This document shows, piece after piece, positions 1,371-22,236 of a stretch of 64,000 nucleotides of DNA. This DNA comes from Cetobacterium somerae. Its GTDB lineage: Bacteria > Fusobacteriota > Fusobacteriia > Fusobacteriales > Fusobacteriaceae. Both the position numbers and the translations under genes were made by a program. Each line of letters opens with the position of its first letter. The first letter of the stretch is position 1. Location: contig NZ_CP092519.1 in assembly GCF_022430525.1 (NCBI RefSeq), forward strand, positions 248,001 through 312,000. Direction: 5' to 3'. A model generated the notes under the pieces. The model was not told the origin of the DNA. It saw only the letters and a program-made list of their open reading frames with translations, and searched no databases.

Positions 1371-3191
1371 ATGGGGGACATATTAAAAAAACGTATAGAA
1401 TATTTAACAGGGAAAATTGCACCAGTAGAAACTTTAAAAAAATTAGAGCAAGAGTGTGAAGATATTTTAAAACAATATAAAGAGAATAAAACTTTAATTG
1501 AAGAGAACGAAAAAAGAGTTTTAGTAGAAAGAGTTAGAGATAGTTATAAAAAAATATTAACTTTAGGGGTAGCTTATAATACAGAGAATTCAATTTACTA
1601 TAAGGATGAGACAATATTTTTAATAGCTAACGAAGTATTGAAAAATCACTATGAAAATTACTATAATTTGGAATCTGTAGAACATACAAACTGGTGGCAG
1701 TGGGAGATTGGATATCCGTTACTATTAAATGATATATTGATTCTTTTTTTAGAGAGATTAGAAAAAGAGTTAATAGACAAGATAATAGATGTAACAAGAT
1801 ATTTTTTACCAGATGAGAGATACTTAGGAAATAATCCTGTGGCAATACATCCAAGTGGGTCGCCTTTAAGACCAGCAACTGGAGGAAACTTAATTGATAC
1901 TTGCAAAATTATATTTTTAAGAGGTGCTCTTTTAAAAGATTTAGAGATATGTCAAAAAGCTGTGGAGTCTATATCTGAAACTTTAGAGATAATATCTGAA
2001 AAAAATATAGAAACACTAAGTAATAGAGATGGGTTTTATGCAGATGGATCATTTATACAGCATGGATTTATACCATATGCAGGAACTTATGGAAATGTTT
2101 TACTATCTGGAATTGCTGAAATAATATACTTGGTAGATGAAAAACTTAGGAACAAAATAGATACTAAAAAAATATGTGAAAGAGTTTATTCATCATTTGA
2201 ACCACTATTTTTCAAGGGAGCTATGACAGATATAGTTAATGGTAGAGCTATAACAAGGGATGGAAATGATCACCAGATAGGACATGAGGTTATAAACTCT
2301 TTACTGTTATTAGCTCATGGAGTAGATGAAGAAAATAAAGTAAAACTTTTAGAAATAGCAAAAAGAGAGTTGTCTTTAGATGAATATTATTTATATACAG
2401 AAAAAGAGAAGAAAGCTATTTTTTATAATCTTTCTAAAGAGGTTTTGGAAAATTCAAATATTAAAGTTGAAAACTACTCTAGTGAAGTAAAGTGTTTTAA
2501 TGAGATGAATAGAGTTTTTTATAGAAATGGAAAGTTTGCAATAGGACTTGCTATGCACTCAAAAAAAATTGGGAACTTTGAAACATTTAATGGAGAAAAT
2601 ACAAAAGGATGGTTCACAGGTGATGGTGCAGTGTATGTATATTCAAAGGGTGATGAATATATTGATTATTGGAAAGGGGTAGACTTTTACTATATTCCAG
2701 GGACAACAGAGATAAAGATGAATATGGAAAATATAAAAGGTGTGGAAAGTTCTGTAGGTAACATGCCAAAAAATAGCGTAGCTGAAGGTTACGGAGATAA
2801 AGATTCAGGAGTTGCCTATATGGATTTTATCAACTGGAATGGAAAATTAAGTAGTAAGAAAAACTATATATTTAAAAAGACAGGTATGGTTTATTTGGAG
2901 AACTATATAACAGGAGAGGGAGAGGTATACTCAACTGTAGCTAATATGAGAATTTCAAATTTGAAAAATAAAACTATCTGTATTGATGGAGAGCCTATGA
3001 AGGATACTTTTATAACTGGGGAGTTTAAAGAGATATCTTTAGGTAATTTAATATATAAATTTTATAAAAGTGAAAAAATAAATTTGGAAATATATGGTAA
3101 GGAAGATAACAAGTTTGTAAAAATTTGGATAGATTTAGGAATGAACCCAATTAATTATACTGTTGCATGGGAAGTTATAATTGTAGTATAA
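1371..3191 (+). CDS. PL8-family polysaccharide lyase without signal peptide
   Basis: This 606-residue protein is related to hyaluronate and chondroitin AC lyases, which eliminate the uronic acid linkage of GAGs and leave a 4,5-unsaturated uronate. Typical PL8 segments are TNWWQWEIG (about 106-114), GGN (N173), IQHGFIPYAGTYG (H231, Y240), GRAITRDG (R292/R296) and NFETFNGEN (E404/E409), matching the known catalytic Asn, His, Tyr, Arg and Glu. There is no signal peptide, so it should be cytoplasmic. Compared with the paralogue at 13987-16281 it lacks about 110 C-terminal residues. It may act on imported oligosaccharides. Exact substrate is unknown. Confidence 0.88.
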   Translation: MGDILKKRIEYLTGKIAPVETLKKLEQECEDILKQYKENKTLIEENEKRVLVERVRDSYKKILTLGVAYNTENSIYYKDETIFLIANEVLKNHYENYYNLESVEHTNWWQWEIGYPLLLNDILILFLERLEKELIDKIIDVTRYFLPDERYLGNNPVAIHPSGSPLRPATGGNLIDTCKIIFLRGALLKDLEICQKAVESISETLEIISEKNIETLSNRDGFYADGSFIQHGFIPYAGTYGNVLLSGIAEIIYLVDEKLRNKIDTKKICERVYSSFEPLFFKGAMTDIVNGRAITRDGNDHQIGHEVINSLLLLAHGVDEENKVKLLEIAKRELSLDEYYLYTEKEKKAIFYNLSKEVLENSNIKVENYSSEVKCFNEMNRVFYRNGKFAIGLAMHSKKIGNFETFNGENTKGWFTGDGAVYVYSKGDEYIDYWKGVDFYYIPGTTEIKMNMENIKGVESSVGNMPKNSVAEGYGDKDSGVAYMDFINWNGKLSSKKNYIFKKTGMVYLENYITGEGEVYSTVANMRISNLKNKTICIDGEPMKDTFITGEFKEISLGNLIYKFYKSEKINLEIYGKEDNKFVKIWIDLGMNPINYTVAWEVIIVV

Positions 3192-5296: not shown

Positions 5297-5353
5297 CCAT
5301 TTAAATTATAACTGAAAGTTTAAAACTTAAACTTGATAAGAGGGGAGATAAAA

Positions 5354-6544
5354 ATGGAGATATTAAAAAAGACAAGAGAGAAATATTCAAAAGAGTTTAG
5401 ATTGTCGAAAGAGGATATGTTTTTTGCAATGCACGAAGCAATGAAAAAAGTAGATGAAAATTCAAAGGTATTTATAGACACATACCCAAGAGCAGCTAGT
5501 GTAAATAATATATATCCTGGGACAAAAAATGCAGAGGATTTTGATGACTGGACAGTTGGATTTTGGACAGGGATGTTATGGTTATCTTATGAGATGACTG
5601 AAAATGAAAAATATAGAAAAATAGCTGAATATCAATTAAAGGGGTATAAAACAAGAATAGAGAATAAAGTTCATGTAAATCATCATGATATAGGATTTTT
5701 ATACTCTCTTTCGGCAGTTGCTCAAGAAAGAGTTACAGGAAGTGAGTTAGCTAAAGAGGTTGGAATAAAAGCTGCGGAGCACTTAATAACTAGATTCCAA
5801 GAGAAGGGGCAATTTATCCAAGCTTGGGGAGACTTAGGAAAGCCAGAGGATTATAGACTGATTATAGATTGTAATATGAATGTACCATTACTATTTTGGG
5901 CAACAGAGATGACTGGAGATAAAAAGTTTGCTGAAATAGGTGCAAAACATTTAGCAACAGCTTCAAGTGTTGTTGTTAGAGAGGATTCATCAACACACCA
6001 TACGTATTACTTTGATCATGAGACAGGAGAGCCTACAAGAGGAGTTACAGCGCAAGGGTATTCAGATACCTCAGCATGGGCAAGAGGACAAGCTTGGGGA
6101 GTTTATGGATTCCCATTAGCTTATGGTTATACAAAGGATAAGAGATACATGGACCTTTATAAAAGAGTTACAAATTACTTTATAAACAATCTACCAGAAG
6201 ATGACGTATGTTACTGGGATTTAGTATTTACAGATGGATCTGGACAACCAAGGGATACATCTGCTGCAGCTATAGCAGTATGTGGAATTTTAGAGATGGA
6301 TCAATATTTAGATGCAAATGATCCAGATAGAGAGATCTATTTAAATGCAGCTCATAAAATGATGAAATCACTTATGAAAAATTACAGTACAAAAGATTTA
6401 GATTATTCTAATGGACTTTTAACAGATGCAGTTTACTCAATTCCTCACGGATCAGGAGTTAAAGAGTGTAATATTTGGGGAGATTACTATTATTTAGAGG
6501 CTTTAACAAGACTATTTAAACCAGAGTGGAAAAAATATTGGTAA
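5354..6544 (+). CDS. ugl: GH88 unsaturated glucuronyl hydrolase
   Basis: This 396-residue enzyme would remove the 4-deoxy-4,5-unsaturated uronic acid from lyase-derived GAG disaccharides by hydration of the double bond. Family signatures are DDWTVGFWTGMLWLSYEMT, HHDIGF (D112) and DCNMNVPLLFWA (D172). The two Asp are 60 residues apart, like the catalytic pair D88/D149 of the Bacillus enzyme, and SAWARGQAWGVYGF follows. No signal peptide, so cytoplasmic. An in-frame TTG at 5333 is possible, but the ATG at 5354 sits correctly behind AGGGGAG (5341-5347). It has its own promoter. Confidence 0.93.
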   Translation: MEILKKTREKYSKEFRLSKEDMFFAMHEAMKKVDENSKVFIDTYPRAASVNNIYPGTKNAEDFDDWTVGFWTGMLWLSYEMTENEKYRKIAEYQLKGYKTRIENKVHVNHHDIGFLYSLSAVAQERVTGSELAKEVGIKAAEHLITRFQEKGQFIQAWGDLGKPEDYRLIIDCNMNVPLLFWATEMTGDKKFAEIGAKHLATASSVVVREDSSTHHTYYFDHETGEPTRGVTAQGYSDTSAWARGQAWGVYGFPLAYGYTKDKRYMDLYKRVTNYFINNLPEDDVCYWDLVFTDGSGQPRDTSAAAIAVCGILEMDQYLDANDPDREIYLNAAHKMMKSLMKNYSTKDLDYSNGLLTDAVYSIPHGSGVKECNIWGDYYYLEALTRLFKPEWKKYW

Positions 6545-6581: not shown

Positions 6582-7082
6582 TTATATATTTTCTGAAACT
6601 ACAATAACTGTATATTTATTAGGAAATTTTCGTCCGTGATGAATTACACTAAAGTTGTTAATAGATTTTTTGTCCATTTCAGAAAGATTTTTAATAATTT
6701 TATATGCACTAACAATAACGAATATTTTATTAGGTCCAAAAATAGCTGCACAACTTGCAAAATCATTTGAAAAAATTAACTCACCATTTTCTGTGATAAA
6801 ATCACATTGGGTAATAAAGTTATCAGCTAAAATAGCTTCTCGATCCTTTTTATAATCAAATATAGTACACCCTTTTTCCTTTAGTGGAGAAGATAACTCT
6901 AGAAGATTTAAAAAAGGTGTTTCATCAAGAACTAAAGATTCAGATGGTGATATTTTAGATGTTAAAAAATCTTTAATATTATCCAAATGATCTATAAAAA
7001 TAGCATCATATTCCTTAGAAAGTAGTACTTTTGTGATGTTTTCAGCTTTTTTATTATAAAACCATTTTATATTTTGATCCAT
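6582..7082 (-). CDS. Divergent short LUD-domain protein
   Basis: This 166-residue protein resembles the LUD (LutB/LutC, DUF162) fold. FITENGELIFSNDFASCAAIFGPNKIFVIVSAYKI parallels the stretch around SKNGELIQTDSGGNRVASLLLGPKNV in the gene just upstream. It is shorter than usual and lacks that partner's C-terminal cysteine motif. Its ATG overlaps the partner's stop by one base, so they are co-translated. It could be a diverged second subunit or a degenerating copy. Function unknown. Confidence 0.6.
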   Translation of the reverse strand: MDQNIKWFYNKKAENITKVLLSKEYDAIFIDHLDNIKDFLTSKISPSESLVLDETPFLNLLELSSPLKEKGCTIFDYKKDREAILADNFITQCDFITENGELIFSNDFASCAAIFGPNKIFVIVSAYKIIKNLSEMDKKSINNFSVIHHGRKFPNKYTVIVVSENI

Positions 7083-7723
7083 TAGTAACCCACCTCTTCA
7101 TTTATGATTATAATAGTTATTGGATTTCCAACTCTTTTTCCAGATTTAATTACAGATGTAAAGTTACAGATTCTTTGCTTTGTTTGACAATCTTCACAAA
7201 CTCCAGAGATATTGCATGGTGTTTTGTGGTTAATTCTCTTAGAGTTTAAAGGTCCAACAAACTCTTTAATTCTATTCATTCCCTCTTGCCAAGTATCAAC
7301 AAGCTTATTTATTCCACAAACAACAATAACATTTTTAGGCCCCAAAAGTAAACTAGCAACTCTGTTACCACCAGAATCCGTTTGGATAAGTTCTCCATTT
7401 TTGCTAATAGCATTTGTACTAGTTAGAAAAAAGTCTGCTAAGAGTCCTTCTCTCATACATTGAAGGGTACTAGGCCAATCGGGCTGATTATATCTATCAA
7501 AGAGATGATATTCGTCACCTCTAAAAGTATCTATAATGTCAAGTTGGTTAATTGTAACTGAGCCTCCTAAAGCTATAGAAGAGTGAAGAGGAATTAAATT
7601 AAGAATAATCTCTTTTGCTTCTTCAAGATTTTCAGCATAGATAGGATTATAATTTTTTTTAGAAAGGGTATCCATCAAAGAAAGAATATCGCTCTTTCTA
7701 AGTTCTTTTTTTATGGTGTTCAT
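7082..7723 (-). CDS. LUD-domain protein (lactate-utilisation type)
   Basis: This 213-residue protein belongs to the LUD family of LutC/YkgG-like proteins. It has SIALGGSVTINQLDIIDTF, a glycine-rich LLLGPKNVIVVCGINKL segment, and a C-terminal cysteine motif CNISGVCEDCQTKQRICN typical of stand-alone Firmicute-type members. The family is linked to oxidation of lactate and similar hydroxy acids, but the reaction of these stand-alone members is not established. A strong Shine-Dalgarno (AAGGAGGAA) precedes the ATG. It runs opposite to the GAG genes and may be an insertion in the locus rather than part of it. Confidence 0.75.
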   Translation of the reverse strand: MNTIKKELRKSDILSLMDTLSKKNYNPIYAENLEEAKEIILNLIPLHSSIALGGSVTINQLDIIDTFRGDEYHLFDRYNQPDWPSTLQCMREGLLADFFLTSTNAISKNGELIQTDSGGNRVASLLLGPKNVIVVCGINKLVDTWQEGMNRIKEFVGPLNSKRINHKTPCNISGVCEDCQTKQRICNFTSVIKSGKRVGNPITIIIINEEVGY

Positions 7724-7988: not shown

Positions 7989-10900
7989 ATGAAAGCGAAA
8001 GAGAAAATGGTATTGTTAGGAATCTTTCTATTATTTTCTAGCAAAAGTTTGGTGAGTTATTCAATTCCAGTTACAAGTGAGAATAATAATGATTTAACTA
8101 TTACAAGTGGAACAGCAATAGAGGCTAATAAAAATCATAATAGAGTAAATAATGCAACTATAACAGTTAGTGGAGACAAGACTGTTGGGATGAAAGCAAA
8201 CAACTACTCATCTGGAGATCCATCAATAGTTGAAAATAGAGGAACTATAAATGTAACTGCAGGAGCGGGAACAATAGGAATGCAGGCAGCAGGGAGCGGG
8301 ACCCAAGCTATAAATGCAGGTACAATAACTCATAATGGTAATAATTCAACATCAAATGCAATGTTAGCTCAAAATGGTGGATACTTAGAAAATAATGGAA
8401 CTATTGAAATTTCAGGAACTAATGCATCTGGAATGGCAGCAGATAAAGATGGATCATCATTAAAAAATACAGGAACAATAGTAGTAGATAAAAATGCAAA
8501 AGGAATAAAGTTAACAAATGGAGCAAGAGGGCTAAACTCTGGGAAAATAGATGTAAAAAATGGAACAGGAATGTCAATTGAGACAGGATCGATCGGAGAA
8601 AATAAAGGTAAAATAAATATATCAGGAAACGGAACAGGTATATTAGTAACAGGAGGAAGCGAAGGTTTAAATAGCGGAATAATAACCTTAAATAATGCTA
8701 ATTCGACAGGAATGATAATAGGAAATACAAATTCTCAAGGAAAAGGAGAAAATACGGGAGATATTTATGTTTCAGGAGATAAATCAACAGGGATGTCAAT
8801 TTTAAATGGAAGTTCTGGAATAAATAGTGGAACTATAAATGTTACCGCAGGAGAATTTACTTCAGGAATGAAAGTTGATGGAGTAAATAGTACAGGGACG
8901 AATAATGGAGCTATAATTCATACAGGAAATGGAAAGACATCAAATGCCATGTTAGCTCAGAATGGTGGATACTTAGAAAATAATGGAACTATTGAAATTT
9001 CAGGAACTAATGCATCAGGAATGACAGCAGATAAAAATGAGTCATCATTAAAAAATACAGGAACAATATTAGTAGATGGAAATGCAAAAGGAATAAAAAT
9101 AGTTGGAGCAACAGGGTTAAATACAGGAAAAATAGATGTAAAAAATGGAACAGGAATGTCAATTGAAACAGGGGCGAAGGGAGAAAATACAGGAGAAATA
9201 AATGTATTAGGAAAAGGAACGGGGATATCGATAGCTGGTGGAAGCGAAGGTTTAAATAGTGGAATAATAAAGTTAAGCAGTGCTAATTCAACAGGAGTAT
9301 CTGTTAGTAATAGTAAAGGTAAAAATACAGGAGATATCCATGTAACAGGAAATAGTTCAACAGGAATGTCGGTAACAGGAGGCGGAACAGGAGTAAATAA
9401 TGGAAATATTTATGTAACTGCTAATCAATATACATCGGGAATGAAAGTTGATGGGGCAGGTAGTGTTGGAATAAACAACGGAACTATAATTCACACAGGA
9501 GATGGTCAAACATCGAATGCAATGCTAGCTCAAAATGGTGGATATTTAGAAAATAATGGAACTGTTGAAGTCTCAGGAGTAAACGCATCTGGAATGGCAG
9601 CAGATGGAAATAGTTCATCATTAAAAAATACAGGAACAATAGTGGTAGATAAGAATGCAAAAGGAATAAAATTAACAAATGGAGCAATAGGAATAAGTTC
9701 TGGGAAAATAGATGTAAAAAATGGAACAGGAGTATCGATCGAATCTTCATCTAAAGGAGAAAATAATGGAGATATTTATGTAACAGGAGATAAATCAGTA
9801 GGAATATCAATTACGGCTGGAAGTGAAGGGGTAAATACAGGAAACATTTATGTAACTGGACAAGAGTTTACTTCAGGAATGCAAGTAGTAGGAAGTGGTT
9901 CTAAAGGAATAAATAATGGAGCTATAATTCATACAGGAAATGGAAAAACATCGAATGCGATGTTAGCCCAAACGGGTGGATATTTAGAAAATAATGGAGC
10001 CATTGAAGTTTCAGAAGTAAATGCATCTGGAATGGCAGCAGATGGGAACAATTCATCATTAAAAAATACAGGAACAATAATAGTAGATAAAAAAGCAAGG
10101 GGAATAAAATTAAGTGGTGGAGCTAATGGAATAAGTAGTGGAAAGATAGATGTAAAAGAAGGAACAGGTATCTCAATTGAAACAGGTGCAAAAGGTGAGA
10201 ATCAAGGAGATATTTATGTAACAGGAAATTCTTCTTATGGAATTGCAATTAGTGGAAAAGGTGAAGGAGTAAACAATGGAAATATCTATATTTCAGGAAA
10301 ACAGTATACATCAGGAATGAAGGTAGATGGAGTAGGAAGTATAGGAATAAATAATGGAGTAATAATTCATGAAGGAGATGGTCAAACATCAAATGCAATG
10401 TTGGCTCAAACGGGAGGATACATTGAAAATAACAGATTCATTCAAGTATCCGCAGTAAATGCATCTGGAATGGCAGCAGATAAAGAAGGGTCATCACTAA
10501 AAAATCAAGGAGATATTTTAGTTTTAAATAAAGCAAAAGGAATAAAATTAAGCAATGGAGCTAGTGGAATAAGCAGCGGAAAGATAGTTGTAGAAGAGGG
10601 AACAGGAGTTTCAGTTGAAACAGGTGCAAAAGGTGAAAATCAAGGAGATATTTCAATAACAGGAAACTCTTCGTCAGGAATTTCGATTTCAGGAGCTGGA
10701 GAAGGAATAAATACAGGAAATATTTATGTTTCAGGAAAACAATATACAGCTGGAATAAAGGCGGATGGATTAGGAAGCATAGGAATAAATAATGGAACAA
10801 TAATCCATGAGGGAGATGGCCAAACATCAAATGCAGTTTTAGCTCAAGGAGGAGCAACTGTTGAAAATAATGGTTTAATACAAACATCAGGAATAAATAC

Positions 10901-13900
10901 ATCAGCTATGAGTGCAACTGGAGTGGATAGTAAAGTTCTAAATAATGCAACTGGAAAAATAACAGTATTTGATAAAGCTCTAGGGATGAAGATAGAGAAG
11001 AACGGGTATGGAGAGAACTCAGGAATCATATCTAATAATAGTACTGGAATCGGAATGGATATAAGATCAGAATCTTCTGGAAAAAATAGTGGTCTAATAG
11101 AAAATTATTCTGTAAGTTCAGGGGTTAAAGTAGCAGGTCAACTTATAAATACAGGAGAAATAAAGAACTATAACTTTGGAAATGCAGTTTTAGTAAGCAA
11201 TGGAACATTTATAAATGAAGGTGGAGTAATAGATGGTGGATATGGAGTTGCAATAAAATCAGAAGTTCTTAGATTGAAAGATCCAGTAACAGGAAAATAT
11301 TATGATGCTCCAACAAATAATAATGTAGTATTAAAAGGTGGGGAAATAAAAGGTACTATTGAAGGTGGAGTAGGAATAGATGCTTTATTTTTTCAGGGAG
11401 ATAATAATATATCAGATATGAGGATAGAAAATTATGAAATTTTATCAGCAGCTGGTGGAAATAGTAAAATAGATAATTCTTTTATTGATTTGGAATATAG
11501 CCAAGGAAATAAAGGATATTTTGATGAAAATAAAAATAAACTTGAAAGTGAAGGCGTTATAACATCAGATAAAGGGAAATTAGAAATTTCTAATAGTACA
11601 TTAGTTATCGATTTTAAAAATTCTTTAACAGATAAAACTTTAGAAAATTCAATAATTTCGGCAGATAAATTGATATTAAATGGAGATGTAAAGTTTTCAT
11701 TTATTTCGGGTGATGGAAGAACTGAATTTAATTTATCAGAAGCTTTTGGTGGAGTAGATATTGAAATGGGTGAAAATGCAGATATAAAATCATCTGTAAT
11801 TTGGAACTATGAAGTAAAGGATGGGAATGTAATAGCTAAGAAAAATAGCTATGGAGATATATTAACAACATCTAAATTATCTAAGTTTGCTACTTTATTA
11901 GAGGGAGATAGAATAGAGAAGAGTGCTTTAGAAACTAAAGCTATAGATAAATCTTTAATCTATGCTGTTTCTGATGCAGAGCAACTTCAAACAGCTGGAG
12001 AATTTACAAATGCTATGAAACAACTTTCAGGAGGAGTTTACGGTTATATGGCTGATATAGCTTCTATAAACTCAAGAACTTTATCAAAAAGAATGATGGA
12101 TAGAGTAAATCAAAGTGATTTTACTAGAGAAAGAGCAACAAATTCATCAACACAAGATGTGATATATATGGATAATAATCATAGAATCAACGGATTAATG
12201 GACGTTTCATACATAGAGCATGGAATTTTAGGGGTTACAGAAAAACAAATTGAAAACAATGCTAAATTAGGGTTGATGTATGGAGGATCTAATGGAAAAG
12301 TTAAGTTCGAAGGTGGAGAATATGGAAGTGCAGATTTAAATAACATCTATGTTGGAGGATATTATAATTATAAATTTACAGATAGATTCTCTTTAACATC
12401 AAATGCTAGAATAACAAATTCATTTAATTCGTTAAAGAGAACAGTAAACTATGGAAATACTTACGGAAATTTTGATTCTACTTTCCCGACTTATGGTTTT
12501 GGACTTGGAACAGTAGCAGCGTACAATGTTTTGAAAGACGATTATAAAGTTGGAGTTTATGGAGGAATAGATTGGACTAAAATAGTTCAAGGGAATATAA
12601 CAGAAGATCCTATACCAAATGGAAAAACACAAAATGAGTTAGCTGTAAATAGTAATGGAACTGTAGATGAAGAATTTTATGATTCTGTTGTTCCAAAAGC
12701 TGGAATTCTTTTAGAAAAAACAGGTTATTTATTTGGAAAAAAATATATTGTTGGTGGAAACTTTGAGTACGAAACAGAGTTAGGAAATATTAAAGATGGA
12801 AAAGTATTAAAACTTCAAGGGTTGTCTCAAAAGCATAGAATAGAAACAACAAAAATGGAAAATATGTTATCATATAATATTTTTGCATCATTAAATTTAA
12901 CAGAGGATTTCTCACTTTTGGGAAGTTATACTTCTACAAAATCAAAAGAATATGATTCAGACAGTTTAACTGTAGGCGGAAAATATAAATTTAACTCAGT
13001 GGGAGATGTTGTAAATACATATTTTGACAATTTATCTGGAAATAAAAGTGATAGATGGAGAGGAACAGTTAATATCTTATTAGAAGCAGAGGATGATTCA
13101 GATAGAACATATTTTGATATGGATGGGAATCCATATCCAGGTGATTATGCAGCTTCTACATTATATGCTCCAAAATTAACAATGAGTTTAAATGATTTAA
13201 AATCAAAATGGTCATACTACTTTGAAGGGTATTATAAAGATAATGAAATGTTCCAAGGGCTAAAGACAAATGAAGCAGAGCAACACGCAACAAGAGTTCA
13301 TTTAGAGGCAAGATGGAATGATACATTCTCTAGAGGAAGATACGGAATTAATATTGCATATAGAAATGAAACAAGTGAAAAACCACAAAACTATGGAAAA
13401 AAAGGATTTAGAGAAGTAAAAAGAGGAGTTCATCAAATTAGACTTACTCCAAACTTTATATATAATTTAGGTAACGGATTTGCTTTAAATGGAAGTTTTA
13501 CAAATATATATGAGTATAACTATATTGGAGATAAGGAGGGACAAGGGGATTTCATAATGGAAAATCAAGGTGGAATAGACTATTCTGGACTTATGCCAAG
13601 AGCGTTTATGAGATTAAACCTATTTAGAGAAGATACATGGCATGATCATAACAATGCAACAGAAAGAAAAAGATTAACTCAGATTAGACCAACTTTTAGA
13701 TATTTCTTTGGAAATGGAGCCTATACTCAGTTAGAAGCAAGATTCCCTATATACAATGGTGGTTACTCTAATGACACAAGAACTCAAATAATAAAATCTG
13801 AAAATTATGAAACAAGATATGGAATAAAATATATTCAACCTTTAGCACCAGGACTTACAGGAACAATAGGAGTTACACTATTAACAATAAAAGCTAAAAA

Positions 13901-13970
13901 TAAAGCAACAGGTAATGAAAATAGATATCACTCATTTAGACCGATGGTTGGAGTAAGTTATAGCTTTTAA
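7989..13970 (+). CDS. Giant autotransporter with repeat passenger and apparent second C-terminal barrel
   Basis: This 1993-residue protein has a signal peptide (MKAKEKMVLLGIFLLFSSKS) and a passenger of beta-helix-like NNGTI/NTGDI repeats up to about residue 1100. A less repetitive part and a helical linker around SRTLSKRMMDRVNQ follow. Residues about 1391-1668 form a normal-sized autotransporter barrel ending LTVGGKYKF. The chain then continues 325 residues with about 12 further amphipathic strands, ending in a second outer-membrane-type terminus, GVSYSF. Single barrels of about 280 residues are usual. The second barrel resembles small oligosaccharide porins (KdgM-like) in size and pattern, which I cannot confirm. 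The gene lies 16 bp before a secreted PL8 lyase. Likely roles are binding GAG at the surface and perhaps its uptake. Confidence 0.85.
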   Translation: MKAKEKMVLLGIFLLFSSKSLVSYSIPVTSENNNDLTITSGTAIEANKNHNRVNNATITVSGDKTVGMKANNYSSGDPSIVENRGTINVTAGAGTIGMQAAGSGTQAINAGTITHNGNNSTSNAMLAQNGGYLENNGTIEISGTNASGMAADKDGSSLKNTGTIVVDKNAKGIKLTNGARGLNSGKIDVKNGTGMSIETGSIGENKGKINISGNGTGILVTGGSEGLNSGIITLNNANSTGMIIGNTNSQGKGENTGDIYVSGDKSTGMSILNGSSGINSGTINVTAGEFTSGMKVDGVNSTGTNNGAIIHTGNGKTSNAMLAQNGGYLENNGTIEISGTNASGMTADKNESSLKNTGTILVDGNAKGIKIVGATGLNTGKIDVKNGTGMSIETGAKGENTGEINVLGKGTGISIAGGSEGLNSGIIKLSSANSTGVSVSNSKGKNTGDIHVTGNSSTGMSVTGGGTGVNNGNIYVTANQYTSGMKVDGAGSVGINNGTIIHTGDGQTSNAMLAQNGGYLENNGTVEVSGVNASGMAADGNSSSLKNTGTIVVDKNAKGIKLTNGAIGISSGKIDVKNGTGVSIESSSKGENNGDIYVTGDKSVGISITAGSEGVNTGNIYVTGQEFTSGMQVVGSGSKGINNGAIIHTGNGKTSNAMLAQTGGYLENNGAIEVSEVNASGMAADGNNSSLKNTGTIIVDKKARGIKLSGGANGISSGKIDVKEGTGISIETGAKGENQGDIYVTGNSSYGIAISGKGEGVNNGNIYISGKQYTSGMKVDGVGSIGINNGVIIHEGDGQTSNAMLAQTGGYIENNRFIQVSAVNASGMAADKEGSSLKNQGDILVLNKAKGIKLSNGASGISSGKIVVEEGTGVSVETGAKGENQGDISITGNSSSGISISGAGEGINTGNIYVSGKQYTAGIKADGLGSIGINNGTIIHEGDGQTSNAVLAQGGATVENNGLIQTSGINTSAMSATGVDSKVLNNATGKITVFDKALGMKIEKNGYGENSGIISNNSTGIGMDIRSESSGKNSGLIENYSVSSGVKVAGQLINTGEIKNYNFGNAVLVSNGTFINEGGVIDGGYGVAIKSEVLRLKDPVTGKYYDAPTNNNVVLKGGEIKGTIEGGVGIDALFFQGDNNISDMRIENYEILSAAGGNSKIDNSFIDLEYSQGNKGYFDENKNKLESEGVITSDKGKLEISNSTLVIDFKNSLTDKTLENSIISADKLILNGDVKFSFISGDGRTEFNLSEAFGGVDIEMGENADIKSSVIWNYEVKDGNVIAKKNSYGDILTTSKLSKFATLLEGDRIEKSALETKAIDKSLIYAVSDAEQLQTAGEFTNAMKQLSGGVYGYMADIASINSRTLSKRMMDRVNQSDFTRERATNSSTQDVIYMDNNHRINGLMDVSYIEHGILGVTEKQIENNAKLGLMYGGSNGKVKFEGGEYGSADLNNIYVGGYYNYKFTDRFSLTSNARITNSFNSLKRTVNYGNTYGNFDSTFPTYGFGLGTVAAYNVLKDDYKVGVYGGIDWTKIVQGNITEDPIPNGKTQNELAVNSNGTVDEEFYDSVVPKAGILLEKTGYLFGKKYIVGGNFEYETELGNIKDGKVLKLQGLSQKHRIETTKMENMLSYNIFASLNLTEDFSLLGSYTSTKSKEYDSDSLTVGGKYKFNSVGDVVNTYFDNLSGNKSDRWRGTVNILLEAEDDSDRTYFDMDGNPYPGDYAASTLYAPKLTMSLNDLKSKWSYYFEGYYKDNEMFQGLKTNEAEQHATRVHLEARWNDTFSRGRYGINIAYRNETSEKPQNYGKKGFREVKRGVHQIRLTPNFIYNLGNGFALNGSFTNIYEYNYIGDKEGQGDFIMENQGGIDYSGLMPRAFMRLNLFREDTWHDHNNATERKRLTQIRPTFRYFFGNGAYTQLEARFPIYNGGYSNDTRTQIIKSENYETRYGIKYIQPLAPGLTGTIGVTLLTIKAKNKATGNENRYHSFRPMVGVSYSF
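8230..10990 (+). repeat. Tandem repeats within the autotransporter passenger
   Basis: The segment encoding SNAMLAQNGGYLENNG recurs at 8352, 8940, 9513, 9951, 10389 and 10827. The last four are exactly 438 bp (146 codons) apart. The first two intervals are 588 and 573 bp because they carry an extra block of about 45-50 codons. All intervals are multiples of three, so copy number can change without loss of frame. Confidence 0.9.
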
Positions 13971-13986: not shown

Positions 13987-16281
13987 TTGAAAAAAAAGAT
14001 AATATTAATGATGCTTTTATCAATATGTATAGTTCAAGCAAATGAAAAGAATACAACTAAAGATAATCCAAATAAACAGATAGTTACAAATATATCAAAA
14101 GTGTCTCAAAGTGAAAAAGAAGATTTTAAAAATATGAGATTAAAATGGGCAGAATTTTTAACAGGAAAAGAGAGTTTAGAACTAGAAAGTCCAAAAGTAA
14201 AAAAAGATACAATTAGTACTTTAAACAATATGGGCAGAAAAAATTTAGAAAATTATAACTATGATGAAGCAAGAATGTCAATATACTCAGATTTAGAGGA
14301 TATGAAAAGTGGAGTTCAAATTCAAACAACTTATGAAAGATTAAAAAATTTAAGTAAAGCCTATGTAGTTCCAGGAACAAATTTTTACAAAGATGAAAAA
14401 ATAAAAAAAGAAATTTTAAATTCTTTAGAGTGGCTTCATAAAAATGCCTATTATGAAGGAGCTCCAGAATATGGGAACTGGTGGCAGTGGGAGTTAGGAA
14501 TACCTAAAAATATAAATGAAATAGTAGCAATTATGTACGATGAGATTCCACCAGAAAATAGAATGAAGTATTTAAAAACATCACAATATTTTCAGCCGTA
14601 TGCAAAATATTCAGGGTATAGCCCATCTGCTAAATACTCTTCATCACCAGAATTGAGAGTCTCAACAGGTGGAAATAGAATGGATACATCTATAATATCT
14701 TTCACACGTGGATTTTTAATGGAAGATAGAGAGCAAGTTTTAGATGGAGTTTCAGCAGTTGCAGATGTGGGAGAGTATGTTGCTTCAGGGGATGGATTCT
14801 ACAAAGATTCATCTTTTGTACAACATGGAAATATTGCTTATAACGGAACATATGCCTCAGTATTGTTTAATGGATTAGGTTCAATTTTATATCTTACATC
14901 AGGAACTCAATATGAAATGAAAGATGAAAGATTAAATAATATATATGATTCAATAACAGATGGATACTCATATCTTTTAATAAATGGTGGAGTAACAGAT
15001 GCAGTTAGTGGTAGATCTATTTCAAGGGACGGAAGTAATGAACTTGAAAGAGGTAGAGGTCTTGTAACTTCGATAGCTATGATATCAGAGGGAGCCCCTG
15101 AACCATATAAAAGTAAGATAAGAAAGCTTGTAAAAAAAGCTTTAGATGAGAATACCTCTTATAAGACAACTGAAAAAATATATAATTTAAAATTAAAAGA
15201 GATAATGAAAGATATAGAAATAAATGAGAAATATGAAAAAATAAATGAGCCTAAAAGTAAGGTTTTCTGGGGGATGGATAGAGTTGTTCATTTAGGTCCT
15301 GAAAACATAAAGTTTGTTATAGGTATGCATTCATCTAGAATTGGAAATTATGAAACAATGAATGGAGAGAATAAAAAAGGTTGGTATACAGGAGATGGAG
15401 TTACGTACATTTATGGTGAAAACTCAGATAAATCTAAAGATTTTTGGGCAACTGTTGATATGTACCATCTTCCGGGAGTAACAGCTAGTATAAAGGAAAG
15501 AAAAGATGGGTCAGGAGAGAGAAGACATAAAGTTAAGATGAGTCCAAAATCTTTTGTGGGAGGAGTAACTACAGGAAAAGTAACTTTAGCTGCAATGGAT
15601 TTTCTTTCATGGAATAATCAAACTTCTGGTAAAAAATCATGGTTTTTAATAGATAACACGATGTTTGCAATGGGTTCTAATATTAGTAGTTCAGATGGAG
15701 AAATACATACAACTATTGACAATAGAATTATAGATGGAGAAAACTTTAAATATACGCTGTTATCAGATGAGGAGATAGTAACAAAAAAAGAGATTAGAAT
15801 AGGAAGTTGGGAAAATATAGGTGGAAAAAGTGAAGCTCCAATAGAGGTTGAATATATAACAACTTATATAAATCATGGGAAAAATCCAAAAAATGTAGGT
15901 TATTTTTATAGTGTAGGTTTAGATGAAATATCTAAAAATGATATTGTTATATTATCTCAAAACGATAAAGCTCATGGTATAAAAGTTAAAGATTATACAG
16001 GGATAAACTTTTGGCAAGATAATCAGTATAAAGTTGATAAATATAAGAGTTTTAGTACATTGTCTTTATTAGCTTTAGAAAAAGATAATACATTAGAGCT
16101 TTGGGTAAGTGATCCAACTCAACTTTCAAATGTAATGTCTATTTTAGAAATAGATGGTGCTTATAAATTAGTTGAAACTACTGATAAAAATTTAAAGATA
16201 AGAACAGAGAAAAATAAAACTATTTTAAAAGTAGATAATATTAGAAGTGGGGAAACAAAATATATAAAATTAAAAAAATAA
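13987..16281 (+). CDS. Secreted PL8 polysaccharide lyase (hyaluronate/chondroitin lyase type)
   Basis: This 764-residue protein starts with a signal peptide (MKKKIILMMLLSICIVQANE) and has complete PL8 architecture: alpha/alpha toroid, central beta domain and C-terminal domain. Expected catalytic residues are N230 (STGGNRMD), H280 and Y289 (FVQHGNIAYNGTYAS), R343/R347 (GRSISRDG) and E456/E461 (NYETMNGENKKGWYTGDG). No Cys follows the signal, so it is probably soluble and periplasmic or secreted. Translation starts at TTG 13987 behind AAAGGGGGAG, 16 bp after the autotransporter stop. It depolymerises hyaluronan or chondroitin to unsaturated disaccharides; which one cannot be told here. Confidence 0.9.
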   Translation: MKKKIILMMLLSICIVQANEKNTTKDNPNKQIVTNISKVSQSEKEDFKNMRLKWAEFLTGKESLELESPKVKKDTISTLNNMGRKNLENYNYDEARMSIYSDLEDMKSGVQIQTTYERLKNLSKAYVVPGTNFYKDEKIKKEILNSLEWLHKNAYYEGAPEYGNWWQWELGIPKNINEIVAIMYDEIPPENRMKYLKTSQYFQPYAKYSGYSPSAKYSSSPELRVSTGGNRMDTSIISFTRGFLMEDREQVLDGVSAVADVGEYVASGDGFYKDSSFVQHGNIAYNGTYASVLFNGLGSILYLTSGTQYEMKDERLNNIYDSITDGYSYLLINGGVTDAVSGRSISRDGSNELERGRGLVTSIAMISEGAPEPYKSKIRKLVKKALDENTSYKTTEKIYNLKLKEIMKDIEINEKYEKINEPKSKVFWGMDRVVHLGPENIKFVIGMHSSRIGNYETMNGENKKGWYTGDGVTYIYGENSDKSKDFWATVDMYHLPGVTASIKERKDGSGERRHKVKMSPKSFVGGVTTGKVTLAAMDFLSWNNQTSGKKSWFLIDNTMFAMGSNISSSDGEIHTTIDNRIIDGENFKYTLLSDEEIVTKKEIRIGSWENIGGKSEAPIEVEYITTYINHGKNPKNVGYFYSVGLDEISKNDIVILSQNDKAHGIKVKDYTGINFWQDNQYKVDKYKSFSTLSLLALEKDNTLELWVSDPTQLSNVMSILEIDGAYKLVETTDKNLKIRTEKNKTILKVDNIRSGETKYIKLKK

Positions 16282-16366: not shown

Positions 16367-17740
16367 GTGAAGAAAAATTTAGTTTTTATAACAACAGATC
16401 ATCAAAGAGCAGATACTATTGGGATGATACAAAATGGTAAAGAGGTAACTCCAAATTTAAATAGATTAACAGCAGAGGGATTTGATTTTAAAAGAGCTTA
16501 TACAACGTGTCCATTATGTGTTCCAGCTAGAACTGCCTTAGCAACAGGACGATTTCCTACTAGAAATAATGTAGTGATAAATGATTTGAAGAATATACCA
16601 GAAATAACGAAAAATAGTAAAACAATTCATGAATATCTATTTGAAAATGGATATAACGTAAGTCATTTTGGAATGCAACATATAACTTTAAAACCATCTT
16701 TAGAAGATAGAGTTAAATTTAAAAGAATTTTAACAGATGATGATTATGAAAAAATATGTAAGAGAGAGAACATCCCACTATTTGGAGTTGTTGAAGATAG
16801 AGTTAAAGTTAGTGAAAGACATGGAGATATATATGAAGATAGACAGTACACAGGATCAAGAGTTTCACTTTTTGAAAAATCAGAAAATCTATTTAGAGAT
16901 AGAGTTTATATTGATAATGCACTCAATTATTTAGATAGTGAAGCTTTTGAAAAACCTATAGGGATGTTTATAAATATCTGGGCTCCTCATCCACCTTTTA
17001 GAGTTTTAAAGGAACTTATGGATAGATTTCCAGATCCAGAATTACCTGAAAATATAAATAAAATATGTGAAGATGAACCACCTAAAAGAAGAGAGGGAAT
17101 AGCAGCACAGCTAGCTGAGGAGAAAGACTTAGAGCATTGGAAAGATGTATGGCGAGCATATTTAGGCTTAACTAATTATGCAGATGAGCTAATTGGGGAG
17201 ATAATTGAGAAGTTAAAGGAAAAAGGCCAGTATGAAAATACAATGTTTGTATTTACTGCTGACCATGGGGATCATTTAGGGCAACATAAGATGTTTCAGA
17301 AAATGGAGATGTACGAGCAAAGTATAAATGTACCTTTAATAATGAAAGTACCAGAGAAAAGTGAAGTAAAAGTGGAAACGGTAGTTAGTCACTTAGATGT
17401 ACTTCCAACTATATTAGAAAGTTTAAATATAGAAAGTGATGAGGTATTTGTTGGAGAAAATATTTTAAATAATGAAACTCTAAAAAAATCTAGATATGCT
17501 TATAGTCAATATTCAGGAAATCAAGTAGCTATTGGTGATATAAGAAGGTCGATAGTGAGTAAAGAGTTTAAATACATATATGATCCTAGAGATTTAGAAG
17601 AGTTATTTAATTTGAAAAAAGATCCTTTAGAGATGAAAAATGAAGCTGGCAACATAGAGTATAAAGAGGTAAAGAAAAATTTAAAAAATCAATTGTCTCT
17701 ATTTTTAAAAGAGCAAAATGATTGGATAAATATTATATAA
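16367..17740 (+). CDS. Cytoplasmic S1-type sulfatase
   Basis: This 457-residue sulfatase has the activation motif C51-V-P-A-R55 in CPLCVPARTALATG, where the Cys is converted to formylglycine. Metal-binding segments are TTDHQRAD near the N-terminus and FTADHGDHLG in the middle. There is no signal peptide, so it acts on imported sulfated saccharides. The GTG start follows AGAGGAGGT. Its place in the GAG locus suggests desulfation of hexosamine or uronate 2-O positions, but the position attacked is not readable here. A cysteine-type sulfatase in an anaerobe needs a radical-SAM maturase (anSME), which is not in the window. Confidence 0.9.
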   Translation: MKKNLVFITTDHQRADTIGMIQNGKEVTPNLNRLTAEGFDFKRAYTTCPLCVPARTALATGRFPTRNNVVINDLKNIPEITKNSKTIHEYLFENGYNVSHFGMQHITLKPSLEDRVKFKRILTDDDYEKICKRENIPLFGVVEDRVKVSERHGDIYEDRQYTGSRVSLFEKSENLFRDRVYIDNALNYLDSEAFEKPIGMFINIWAPHPPFRVLKELMDRFPDPELPENINKICEDEPPKRREGIAAQLAEEKDLEHWKDVWRAYLGLTNYADELIGEIIEKLKEKGQYENTMFVFTADHGDHLGQHKMFQKMEMYEQSINVPLIMKVPEKSEVKVETVVSHLDVLPTILESLNIESDEVFVGENILNNETLKKSRYAYSQYSGNQVAIGDIRRSIVSKEFKYIYDPRDLEELFNLKKDPLEMKNEAGNIEYKEVKKNLKNQLSLFLKEQNDWINII

Positions 17741-17753
17741 AATGGAGGGTGTT

Positions 17754-19292
17754 ATGAATAAAAAAATTGGGTTATTACTATTAGTTGGGGGACTTTTACA
17801 AAGAGGAGTTTTAGCAAATGAGCATAAGATTTCTGAAAAGCCATTGGAATTAAGTATTCTAGCTATTCAAAACGGAAAGACATATGATGAGAATTGGACA
17901 GTTTTCCAAGAGGCATTTAAGGATACAAATGTGAAATTAAAAAGTTATAGTTCTAAAAATTTAACAGATGAAATACAAGCTTTTAATCTAGCTGTTTCAT
18001 CTGGAAATCTTCCAGATATTATATCTTTAGCTTATCCTGAAAAATTAGAAAGTTTAGGAATGGACGGAGGAATAGTATCATTAAATGATTTGATAGATAA
18101 ACATGCTCCAAACATAAAAGCATTTTTTGAAAAATATCCAAGATATAAGATGGATGCTGTAGCAGCAGATGGAAATATCTATTTTATTCCAGATTATTAT
18201 GATTGGTATAATATGAGAGCTGCTCAAGGGGTATTTATAAGAAAGGATTGGTTAGATAAGTTAGGATTAAAAACTCCAAAGACAATGGATGAACTATATG
18301 AAGTTATGGTAGCTTTTAAAACGAAGGATCCAAATGGAAATGGAAAAGCAGATGAAATTCCATACTTTGAAAGATCAGTGGAGTTTGCTGATAAAGAGTT
18401 AGTGGGAATGTTTGGAGCAGAGATAGGATTTTATGTAGATGAAAATGGAAAAGTAAAATTTGGTCCAACAACAGAGAGATTTAAAGAAGCTATGCCTCAA
18501 GTTATAAAATGGTATAAAGAGGGATTGATAGATCCTGAGATATTTACAAGAGGATTCCAAGCGAGAGACTATATGTTAAGAAATGATTTAGGAGGAGTTA
18601 CTTTTGATTGGTTTGCTAGTACAGCTTCGTATAATGAGGATAAAGAGTTAAAGGATAAAGTGAAAGATTTTGAATTTATTGCAATAGCACCGCCAGAATA
18701 TAAAGGGAAAAGTTATGCCCCAGATGCTAGAACAACTTATTTAGGTGGTTGGGGAATAAGTGCTACATGTAAAGATCCTGTTGCAGCTATAAAATATTTT
18801 GATTATTGGTTCTCTCAAAAAGGGTATGAGTTATCTAACTGGGGTGTAGAAAATGATACTTTTGTTAAAGAGGAAAATGGTAAAAAGAAATTTACAGATA
18901 CGGTTATGAAAGCTGATGGAAAGACACCTTTACAAGTTTTAAGAGATAAAGGGATACAGTTTAGAATAGGTGCTTTACAAGATTATGAGTATGAAAAGGC
19001 TTGGGGGAATCCAAAAGCATCAGAATGGGCGGAGATGTATATGCAAAATGGATATATTGTAGATCCAATGCCAACTTTAAAATATACAAAAGAGGAAAAT
19101 AGAAAAATACAGAAAATAAATTCGCAACTTAATATGGCTGTAAAAGAGATGAATCAGAAATGGATTTTAGGAGCTGTAGATTTTAATAAAACATATGACG
19201 AATTTCTAAAGAGATTAAATGAAATAGGGCTACAAGAGGCAATAGAGATAAATCAAAAGGCATATGATAGATTTGTTGGTTCTAGCAACTAA
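17754..19292 (+). CDS. Periplasmic solute-binding protein for GAG oligosaccharides (non-lipidated)
   Basis: This 512-residue binding protein is of the large AlgQ/LipO-like type used with LplB/YtcP-type permeases. It has a signal peptide (MNKKIGLLLLVGGLLQRGVLA) but no lipobox Cys, so it should be soluble. An EF-hand-like loop DPNGNGKADE (192-201) matches the calcium site of AlgQ-type and Streptobacillus GAG-binding proteins. An upstream in-frame ATG at 17742 lies before the Shine-Dalgarno GGAGGGT (17744-17750), so the start is 17754. It is a paralogue of the lipoprotein at 23021-24580, and both probably feed the same permease pair. Confidence 0.88.
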   Translation: MNKKIGLLLLVGGLLQRGVLANEHKISEKPLELSILAIQNGKTYDENWTVFQEAFKDTNVKLKSYSSKNLTDEIQAFNLAVSSGNLPDIISLAYPEKLESLGMDGGIVSLNDLIDKHAPNIKAFFEKYPRYKMDAVAADGNIYFIPDYYDWYNMRAAQGVFIRKDWLDKLGLKTPKTMDELYEVMVAFKTKDPNGNGKADEIPYFERSVEFADKELVGMFGAEIGFYVDENGKVKFGPTTERFKEAMPQVIKWYKEGLIDPEIFTRGFQARDYMLRNDLGGVTFDWFASTASYNEDKELKDKVKDFEFIAIAPPEYKGKSYAPDARTTYLGGWGISATCKDPVAAIKYFDYWFSQKGYELSNWGVENDTFVKEENGKKKFTDTVMKADGKTPLQVLRDKGIQFRIGALQDYEYEKAWGNPKASEWAEMYMQNGYIVDPMPTLKYTKEENRKIQKINSQLNMAVKEMNQKWILGAVDFNKTYDEFLKRLNEIGLQEAIEINQKAYDRFVGSSN

Positions 19293-19434: not shown

Positions 19435-20412
19435 ATGAAAGAAAATATTTTAGAAATGGATGAAAGAGTAGAATCAGAAAAAATAGGTCTCATTAAGAAA
19501 ATAATGACTGGATTGAAAAGAGGAAACGTAAAAGATCAAATGTCATTATATCTGATTTTTCTTCCATTTATACTTTGGTATATGATATTTGCATATAAAC
19601 CAATGTATGGTCTTATAATCGCTTTTAAAGATTACAATCTATTTAGGGGAATATCAGGAAGTGAATGGGTAGGACTAGCAAACTTTACAGAGTTTTTAAC
19701 AAGCCCATACTTTTATACAACTCTAAAAAATACAATATTTTTAAATATATATAGTTTAGTGTTTGAGTTTCCATTTGCCATAATTTTAGCTCTTATGCTA
19801 AATGAGGTAAAAAATAGATTTTTTAAATCTTTCGTTCAAACAGTTTCGTTTTTACCATACTTTATAGCAATAGTTGTAACAGCTGGAATAACTATAAATA
19901 TTCTTTCTCCAAGTAGTGGTGTAATAAACCATATTTTAGAAAGATTTGGATTTGAAAAGATATACTTCCTATCAAAACCAGAGTACTTTAGAGGAATATT
20001 TACAGGAATGAACATGTGGAAAAGTACAGGATTTAATGCAGTAATCTATTTAGCAGCTTTAACAGCAGTGGATGAATCTCTATATGAAGCAGCAAAGATA
20101 GATGGAGCTACAAAGTTCCAACAGCTTAGATTTATAACTTTCCCATCAATTATCCCAACAATAGTTATAATGTTAGTACTGAAAGTTGGAAGTATGCTAA
20201 ACGTTGCATTTGAGACAGTTTTATTACTTTATCAACCAGCAACATATTCAACATCAGATGTTATAAGTACTTATGTTTATAGAACAGGTATGTTAATGCA
20301 AGATTTTGGTTTAGCAACAGCAGTTGGATTATTCAATGCAGTTATTGGATTTATCCTAGTTTACCTAGCAAATAGATGGAGTAAAAAGATAACATCATCA
20401 GGACTTTGGTAA
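19435..20412 (+). CDS. ABC transporter permease, LplB type (GAG import)
   Basis: This 325-residue inner-membrane protein has six predicted helices and the cytoplasmic EAA loop EAAKIDGATKFQQLRF that contacts the ATPase. It is the first of two CUT1 permeases and resembles the Streptobacillus GAG importer and alginate AlgM1. The N-terminal 40 residues are a hydrophilic extension. It is the first gene after a strong promoter. No ATPase gene is nearby, so a shared MsmX/UgpC-type ATPase encoded elsewhere is likely. Confidence 0.9.
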   Translation: MKENILEMDERVESEKIGLIKKIMTGLKRGNVKDQMSLYLIFLPFILWYMIFAYKPMYGLIIAFKDYNLFRGISGSEWVGLANFTEFLTSPYFYTTLKNTIFLNIYSLVFEFPFAIILALMLNEVKNRFFKSFVQTVSFLPYFIAIVVTAGITINILSPSSGVINHILERFGFEKIYFLSKPEYFRGIFTGMNMWKSTGFNAVIYLAALTAVDESLYEAAKIDGATKFQQLRFITFPSIIPTIVIMLVLKVGSMLNVAFETVLLLYQPATYSTSDVISTYVYRTGMLMQDFGLATAVGLFNAVIGFILVYLANRWSKKITSSGLW

Positions 20413-20451
20413 AAAGTATTAACTGTTAAAAAAATTTGAAAGGAGAGATTT

Positions 20452-21333
20452 ATGAGTAAAATTAAAAGATCAAAAGATGAAAAAATATTTGATTTTATCA
20501 ATTATTCCCTACTTGCAATATTTGGAATAATGTTTATATATCCAATTATATATGTATTCTCAGCATCAGTGACAAAACCATACCTTTTAGAGATAGGAGA
20601 GATGTATCTTCTACCTAAAGGGATTAGTATGGCATCATTTAAGGCAGCTATGAATCTAGATGGAATCTGGTTAGCTTATGCAAACAGTATCTTTATAACA
20701 GTTGTAGGAACTGCTGTAAGTATGTTCTTTACAATAACTGGAGCTTATGTTTTATCAAAACCAGAGTTAAAATTTAGAAAAATTTTAACATTAATGGTTG
20801 TTGTGACAATGTGGTTTGATCCAGGAATGATCCCTAGATATCTGAACTTTAGAGACTTAGGTCTTATTAATAGTTATACATCTGTAATTGTAGGATTCGC
20901 AGTAAATACATTTAATGTAATAATTTTAAAGAGTTTCTTTGAAGCTGTGCCAAAATCACTAGAGGAATCAGCTAGAATAGATGGAGCTACTCAGTGGCAA
21001 ATTATGACAAAAATATATCTACCTCTATCAACTTCAGCGTTAACAACAGTATCATTGTTTTATGCTATCTCAAGATGGAATGGATATTTCTGGACAATGG
21101 TTTTATTAACTGATGATTCTAAAGTACCATTACAAGTTTTCTTAAAGAAGTTAATAGTAGAGAAGAATATGGCTGGAGAAGCAGCACAAATTATTACACC
21201 AGAAAGTTTAACATCACCACAATCAATAATATATGCTGTAATAGTTTTATCAATAGTTCCAATAATGATTATATATCCGTTTATCCAGAAGTTCTTTAGA
21301 AAAGGAGTAACTTTAGGAGCAGTAAAAGAGTAG
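20452..21333 (+). CDS. ABC transporter permease, YtcP/AlgM2 type (GAG import)
   Basis: This 293-residue inner-membrane protein with six helices carries the EAA loop ESARIDGATQWQIM and ends GAVKE, typical of the second CUT1 permease. It pairs with the preceding gene (39-bp gap, Shine-Dalgarno AAAGGAGA). It would import unsaturated GAG oligosaccharides delivered by one or both nearby binding proteins. Confidence 0.9.
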   Translation: MSKIKRSKDEKIFDFINYSLLAIFGIMFIYPIIYVFSASVTKPYLLEIGEMYLLPKGISMASFKAAMNLDGIWLAYANSIFITVVGTAVSMFFTITGAYVLSKPELKFRKILTLMVVVTMWFDPGMIPRYLNFRDLGLINSYTSVIVGFAVNTFNVIILKSFFEAVPKSLEESARIDGATQWQIMTKIYLPLSTSALTTVSLFYAISRWNGYFWTMVLLTDDSKVPLQVFLKKLIVEKNMAGEAAQIITPESLTSPQSIIYAVIVLSIVPIMIIYPFIQKFFRKGVTLGAVKE

Positions 21334-21386: not shown

Positions 21387-22223
21387 ATGAGATTAGATAC
21401 AAGATATGCAAATCACCCAGAGGATTCAAAACACTACACAACAGAGGAATTAAGAAAGCACTATTTAATGGAAACAGTTTTCGTTGCTGATGAAGTTAAC
21501 TTAATGTATTCTCATGTGGATAGAGTTATAGCTGGAGGGGTTATGCCAGTTGAAACTGAAGTAAAATTAGAGGGATGTAAAGAGTTAGGATCTGAGTTTT
21601 TCTTAGAGAGAAGAGAGCTTGGACTTATAAATATAGGTGGATCAGGTAAAGTAGTTCTTGATGGAGTTGAATATAAAATGGCTTCAAAAGATGGACTATA
21701 TGTTGGAATGGGAGTAAAAGAGATTACATTCATATCTGATTCTGCAGAAAATCCAGCAAAGTACTATGTTAACAGTGCTCCTGCCCATGTAGCTTACCCT
21801 ACAGTAAAAATAGATATAGCTAATGCTAATGCAGTTCATTTAGGAGATTTAGAGAATTCAAACAAAAGAACTATATTTCAATATGTTCACCCTGCAGTTT
21901 GTAAATCATGTCAACTTTTAATGGGAATGACTGTATTAGACCCAAATAATATGTGGAACACTATGCCAACGCACACACATGAGAGAAGAATGGAAGTTTA
22001 CTTCTATTTCAACATGGATGAAAATACAAGAGTATTTCATTTAATGGGACAACCTCATGAGACTCGTCACATTGTAATGGCTAATGAGCAAGCGGTAATA
22101 TCGCCATCTTGGTCAATTCATTCAGGTGTAGGAACTAAAAATTACACATTTATTTGGGGAATGGCTGGAGAAAATCAAACATTTACTGATATGGACCATA
22201 TAGCTATGGATCAGTTAAGATAA
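21387..22223 (+). CDS. kduI: 5-keto-4-deoxyuronate isomerase
   Basis: This 278-residue enzyme converts 4-deoxy-L-threo-5-hexosulose uronate, which forms spontaneously from the unsaturated uronate, to 3-deoxy-D-glycero-2,5-hexodiulosonate. Length and sequence match KduI throughout. The metal ligands are present: H196, H198 and E203 in HTHERRME, and H245 in SWSIHSG. It is cytoplasmic and lies between the importer and KduD in the same operon. Assignment is firm. Confidence 0.96.
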
Positions 22224-22236
22224 TTGGGGAGGAAAT

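Follow-up and report, generated by a model that had tools for sequence, protein, structure and literature searches.

How do glycosaminoglycan (GAG) fragments cross the outer membrane of Fusobacteriota? Published work on the GAG cluster of Streptobacillus called this outer-membrane channel "unknown" (PMC5430744). We examined this question at a GAG locus of Cetobacterium somerae, within a 64,000-nucleotide stretch of contig NZ_CP092519.1 (assembly GCF_022430525.1, positions 248,001 to 312,000 of the forward strand), hereafter the window, to which all coordinates refer. Its own genome is designated G000 (window, G000:C1:248001-312000), and other G and L numbers denote comparison genomes and loci. 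An earlier note on this DNA had proposed that an autotransporter of the locus carries two outer-membrane barrels in series, the second being a porin of KdgM/NanC size. Here we report that this two-barrel protein is predicted to be a type Va autotransporter that continues into an independent 14-stranded porin of the OmpG type and that it probably combines display of a passenger with entry of GAG oligosaccharides.

The two-barrel protein (1993 amino acids) is encoded by a single unbroken reading frame on the forward strand (7989-13970). A signal peptide with the N-terminal sequence MKAKEKMVLLGIFLLFSSKSLVSYS (7989-8063, approximately residues 1-25, boundary set by eye) is followed by a repetitive, beta-helix-type passenger (8064-11867, approximately residues 26-1293), which was assigned by its sequence repeats and gave only a weak Pfam repeat match to Hyphal_reg_CWP, under the cut-off. 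Residues 1294-1993 were modeled with AlphaFold2 from six sequences (the window protein and five relatives), with a mean predicted local distance difference test score (pLDDT) of 64 and a predicted template modeling score (pTM) of 0.50. In this model, a helix (11994-12113, residues 1336-1375), placed as in classical autotransporter translocators, precedes 12 strands that end at residue 1668 with LTVGGKYKF (barrel 1; 12147-12992, residues 1387-1668). A linker with a short helix (12993-13055, residues 1669-1689) leads to 14 further strands that run to residue 1991, next to the C-terminal end GVSYSF (barrel 2; 13056-13970, residues 1690-1993 plus stop). When the second segment was modeled alone, 14 strands were again obtained (pLDDT 76, pTM 0.65). 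Thus, by prediction, one chain holds two complete, non-overlapping barrels, the property that defines multi-barrel outer-membrane proteins, and the proposal of two barrels in series, as opposed to one large barrel, is upheld by structure prediction and PF03797. Two of its details were revised: barrel 1 starts at nucleotide 12147-12159 rather than 12163, and the second barrel has 14 strands rather than about 12. Since the strand count is even in both barrels, both ends of each would be periplasmic and the linker would cross no membrane.

Barrel 1 was identified as a translocator. The Pfam Autotransporter model (PF03797) matched residues of about 1391-1668 (E = 2.9e-17) through its last position (255/255). 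Eleven PF03797 barrels were found in the window's genome, that of the two-barrel protein included, and the other ten stop 18 to 33 residues past the match with an aromatic C-terminus. In the two-barrel protein the match runs to residue 1648 and LTVGGKYKF to 1668, the usual spacing for an autotransporter end; 325 residues then follow, so that the barrel is present but not C-terminal. None of the ten other autotransporters has a segment like 1669-1993, in agreement with the expectation that it is not a common feature of ordinary autotransporters. One of them lies in the window (29126-32791, reverse strand; PF03797 E = 1.9e-16), and its stop 20 amino acids past the match confirms it as the single-barrel protein that it had been taken for. 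The preceding helix and 12-stranded barrel expected of type Va proteins were both present in the AlphaFold2 model, to which the NalP translocator was aligned by Foldseek with a template modeling (TM) score of 0.73 on the target. The two-barrel protein is thereby like type Va autotransporters such as NalP in its signal peptide, beta-helix-like passenger, helix, 12-stranded barrel and aromatic end; those proteins end at the barrel, whereas here a second barrel is added. Barrel 1 presumably exports the passenger and anchors it at the surface, after which the helix would close the barrel.

Pfam and NCBIfam searched with barrel 2, and Pfam searched with its close relatives, gave no family match, and profile searches of PDB sequences with barrel 2 gave no relevant match. 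By Foldseek, the best PDB match to barrel 2 was OmpG (E = 6e-7), with the 14-stranded CymA among the higher TM-scores (about 0.5) and KdgM only at rank 43. When a profile of 13 barrel-2 relatives was compared to 98 Fusobacteriota genomes, one free-standing relative was detected (E = 8e-7), a 340-amino-acid porin that carries a signal peptide of its own and is encoded at the GAG locus of genome G035. This stand-alone porin aligned to nearly the whole of barrel 2 (hhalign 93% over columns 15-312) and exceeds the Pfam cut-off of PF16946 (OmpG porin), a family that also matched barrel 2 of a homologue without passenger in G006 (E = 1.6e-4). Against a profile extended with the stand-alone porin and passenger-less members, Escherichia coli OmpG scored 43 bits; jackknifes from which members were omitted gave 28, 25 and 14.7 bits, and in every run the real sequence outscored all 1000 shuffles of OmpG. 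By comparison, the shuffles reached at most 10.5 bits, NanC less than 9 bits and single autotransporter barrels about 2 bits at most. The barrel-2 profile was also aligned to OmpG by hhalign (86% over 204 columns, reaching the C-terminus); between barrel 2 and the window genome's own OmpG-like porin hhalign gave no direct signal. Based on the OmpG scores above shuffles, the hhalign result and a stand-alone relative over the PF16946 cut-off, a relation of barrel 2 to the 14-stranded monomeric porin OmpG appears remote but supported.

Barrel 2 shares with OmpG-type porins (E. coli OmpG, PF16946) its 14 strands, its best fold and profile match and a gene context of oligosaccharide ATP-binding cassette (ABC) transport, and differs from them by its C-terminal fusion to an autotransporter barrel, an identity of 16-22% and scores under the Pfam cut-offs. 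CymA, the cyclodextrin channel of Klebsiella, is likewise a 14-stranded monomeric carbohydrate channel, a likeness that rests on fold, and is a stand-alone protein unlike barrel 2. Porins of the KdgM/NanC type have 12 strands. Proposed uptake of acidic sugars is the point that these porins (PF06178) have in common with barrel 2. Such an identity was rejected by the strand number, by the lack of any PF06178 match in the window's genome and by hhalign with NanC (0.5%). Thus, of the earlier proposal the porin is supported, OmpG being best by fold and by profile, and the KdgM/NanC type is not. Duplication of the autotransporter barrel was similarly ruled out as the source of barrel 2 (hhalign of barrel 1 versus barrel 2, probability 4.5%).

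We asked what the inside of barrel 2 may be suited for, with the facing of residues derived from strand alternation. Twelve nearly invariant inward charged positions were found in barrel 2 compared to four in barrel 1. Four arginines of barrel 2, R101, R232, R250 and R275 (residues 1769, 1900, 1918 and 1943 of the two-barrel protein), are invariant in all 16 sequences, a set that includes the stand-alone porin and passenger-less forms at 25% identity. Conserved inward arginines of this kind fit a hydrophilic channel, as far as sequence can indicate. They also bear on the view that barrel 2 is a real porin-fold domain whose main task would be assembly or anchoring (as a scaffold, a contact to a partner barrel or a docking site) and not the passage of sugars. 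This view draws on the class of multi-barrel proteins described by Solan et al. (2021), as cited by PMC11494523, where the largest group, GfcD, is given as uncharacterized, and on the passenger-less form, which keeps both barrels, so that the two-barrel unit must have a role apart from passenger export. The conserved charges, however, lie inside barrel 2, the arginines are invariant even in the stand-alone porin, the relatives of barrel 2 are monomeric diffusion porins and the GAG context is constant; we thus regard a mainly structural role as unlikely.

The fusion of the two barrels was next traced across Fusobacteriota. Searching with barrel 2 (E ≤ 0.01) detected the fusion in 13 of the 98 genomes, at 15 loci in four genera and two families, which answers in the affirmative whether it recurs in other Fusobacteriota GAG loci. 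Every match lies in a long open frame with both an autotransporter barrel and barrel 2; in G024:C76, which ends at a contig edge, no more than the final portion of barrel 1 is visible. Identity to the window protein in other genera is 34-53% for barrel 1 and 41-56% for barrel 2. In G006 and G011 the protein is reduced to 632 amino acids, with a signal peptide, an autotransporter barrel (PF03797, E = 7e-15) and a second barrel about 25% identical to that of the window. Based on these homologues, the passenger appears to be dispensable in some lineages, and a binding passenger is not needed in every case. At L020:9866-14794, the barrels are 96-98% identical to those at window 7989-13970 and the passengers differ (1643 versus 1993 amino acids in total); the difference in length is a changed number of passenger repeats. 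No relatives of the two-barrel protein were found in viral contigs and plasmids, and a scan of genome contigs with two short patterns returned only Fusobacteriota metagenome-assembled genomes, although such patterns do not establish absence elsewhere.

Downstream of the fusion, at a gap of 16 nucleotides, the window encodes a PL8 lyase with a Sec signal peptide (13987-16281, forward strand; PF08124/PF02278/PF02884). A signal-peptide PL8 lyase is the direct downstream neighbor at all 15 loci: at 12 loci and the window the gap is 8-26 nucleotides, and at the two contig-limited loci of G024 the lyase is also adjacent. The pair lies mostly inside GAG clusters with an ABC importer and GH88, and the fusion clusters have in common ABC permeases, a 516-amino-acid solute-binding protein, KduI/KduD, GH88 and sulfatases. 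A minimal module of the fusion and two PL8 lyases, apart from the ABC cluster, was detected at G029:C12. In G006 and G011 most flanking genes are 88-100% identical to those of the window (a few, 67-87%); by contrast, identity falls to 42-44% for the lyase and 27-29% for the barrels, and both lie in inverted orientation (L031:7435-11594, L032:7344-11503). Divergence and inversion of the pair amid such flanks indicate that lyase and barrels were exchanged together, as a cassette replaced in an otherwise conserved GAG locus. The fusion can also be lost: in G023 the gene was deleted except for the last 25 or so codons of barrel 2, which remain directly upstream of the PL8 gene (L078:3228-3330, G023:C13:15228-15330), among neighboring genes that look like a phosphotransferase system.

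The strict pairing and joint exchange could mean that the PL8 lyase encoded downstream reaches the cell surface by way of the two-barrel protein, with barrel 2 as its export channel or docking site. Fusobacterium nucleatum is reported to have no secretion system of types I-IV or VI and to depend on autotransporters (PMC5724010). The same PL8 lyase, however, is found without the fusion in other Fusobacteriota, no POTRA domains were seen such as occur in two-partner secretion, and a folded enzyme of 80 kDa would not fit through the narrow pores of the OmpG type. Display of the lyase is thus improbable, and more so than a structural role of barrel 2.

Largely refuted, and very improbable, is the notion that residues 1391-1993 form a single large, 26-stranded barrel. 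Foldseek did align the whole model to TonB receptors, but only loosely (TM about 0.3, root-mean-square deviation mostly >11 Å), compared to the TM of 0.73 for NalP alone; in addition, the internal end lies just where ten single-barrel autotransporters stop, barrel 2 has a free-standing relative, and the linker helix separates the two sheets. That two ordinary genes were joined in this strain by loss of a stop codon or by faulty assembly has nothing in its favor and is refuted by conservation, the fusion being frame-continuous in 13 genomes of two families with barrel 2 down to about 41% identity (25% in the passenger-less form).

Several observations weigh against an OmpG-type entry pore. Barrel 2 itself is under every Pfam cut-off, so that its relation to OmpG is a remote one, and the extended profile found nothing among PDB sequences with default filters. 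The full AlphaFold2 model, with its six sequences and pLDDT of 64, is of moderate confidence. The net inward charge of barrel 2 is no more than mildly positive (+5.8, compared to +3.4 in barrel 1). The fusion is missing from other Fusobacteriota that have this PL8 lyase and an ABC cluster, and at one fusion locus a stand-alone OmpG-type porin is encoded as well; other uptake routes therefore exist.

The view of the region as a GAG locus was supported: it encodes PL8, GH88, sulfatases, KduI/KduD and ABC permeases, and no TonB receptor or SusD was found among its proteins scanned, consistent with the absence of SusC/SusD-like genes. The genes for which coordinates are given next are all on the forward strand. 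Signal peptides are present on the PL8 lyase at 13987 and on a second, chondroitin-ABC-type PL8 lyase (24642-27554). By contrast, Pfam scan and signal-peptide check revealed none on a third, presumably cytoplasmic PL8 lyase (1371-3191) or on the GH88 unsaturated glucuronyl hydrolase (5333-6544), and both window sulfatases (one at 16367-17740) also lack one. This distribution implies that sulfated oligosaccharides must cross both membranes. Between the sulfatase at 16367 and the PL8 lyase at 24642 lie a probable solute-binding protein (17742-19292), Smon0123-like by gene order (PMC5430744) and about 50% identical to proteins at the corresponding position of Streptobacillus-type clusters; two ABC permeases like those of GAG importers (19435-21333; PF00528, in a Streptobacillus-like cluster); KduI and a KduD-like dehydrogenase (21387-22998); and a second solute-binding protein, a lipoprotein (23021-24580; PF01547).

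We propose the following route. Barrel 1 would export and anchor the beta-helix passenger and then be plugged by its own helix, with a short periplasmic linker joining it to barrel 2. The latter would form an open, arginine-lined monomeric pore. Sulfated GAG oligosaccharides would pass it passively to reach the periplasm, where the signal-peptide PL8 lyases would shorten them. Solute-binding proteins and ABC permeases would import the shortened fragments, and cytoplasmic GH88, PL8 and sulfatases would complete their degradation. As an optional aid, the passenger may gather GAG near the pore. Passive entry through barrel 2 would be the most likely mechanism of transport, and the two-barrel protein is a good candidate for the GAG outer-membrane entrance in Fusobacteriota. 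A more specific version, in which GAG is bound by the passenger and its fragments are passed on to the adjacent, fused OmpG-type pore as a TonB-free, single-chain counterpart of SusCD for Fusobacteriota GAG clusters, is put forward tentatively and falls somewhat short of an even chance. The possible analogy to SusC/SusD is functional, namely surface capture beside an outer-membrane pore in a polysaccharide locus; the two-barrel protein has neither TonB plug nor SusD lipoprotein, a passive pore is expected, and compared to the 22-stranded, plugged barrel of TonB-dependent SusC proteins it gave no Pfam match and a TM of about 0.3.

Related loci provided further observations. Two adjacent LUD-domain genes (one a weak match) at window 6582-7723 recur in GAG loci L020, L025, L031, L032 and L058. 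The fusion is absent from clusters with the published Streptobacillus gene order; in clusters of this type (L061:15596-17671, L062:10080-12233, L065:10051-12330) a putative outer-membrane protein of 692-760 amino acids follows GH88, in the position of Smon0128 ('hypothetical'). This protein is unrelated to barrel 2 by profile and is a candidate alternative channel, possibly large or multi-barrel. More putative stand-alone outer-membrane proteins, also unrelated to barrel 2 by profile, are present in GAG clusters at L029:16978-18054 and L060:2061-3416. The window genome's own stand-alone OmpG-like porin (L077:65-5864, G000:C2) belongs to an operon that also contains genes for ABC permeases and a GH65-like phosphorylase (annotated by eye), and a beta-phosphoglucomutase-like gene. 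E. coli ompG, which adjoins ycjT in the ycj-ompG operon, has the same kind of context, and by this analogy the L077 operon speaks for OmpG-type porins working alongside oligosaccharide importers.

Multi-barrel outer-membrane proteins have been known as a class since the work of Solan et al. (2021), which PMC11494523 and PMC10745669 cite; according to these citing papers, GfcD makes up its largest group. GfcD-type proteins likewise have two barrels per chain (PMC11494523); as cited there, they have 12 + 13 strands, a periplasmic domain and a proposed role in export, whereas the two-barrel protein joins an autotransporter translocator to an OmpG-type porin with proposed uptake. No description of an autotransporter-porin fusion was found in the open literature searched, although Solan et al. 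(2021) might list a family member; the combination appears to be new within an already known class. The two-barrel protein thus provides a conserved and concrete candidate for passage of GAG fragments over the outer membrane in Fusobacteriota clusters related to that of Streptobacillus. The stand-alone porin relative and the passenger-less variant let each part be studied separately. If our reading is true, the protein would be a naturally occurring single chain that unites an autotransporter translocator with a diffusion porin, and would bear on folding by the beta-barrel assembly machinery (BAM), to which two barrels with two terminal beta-signals would be presented in one polypeptide.

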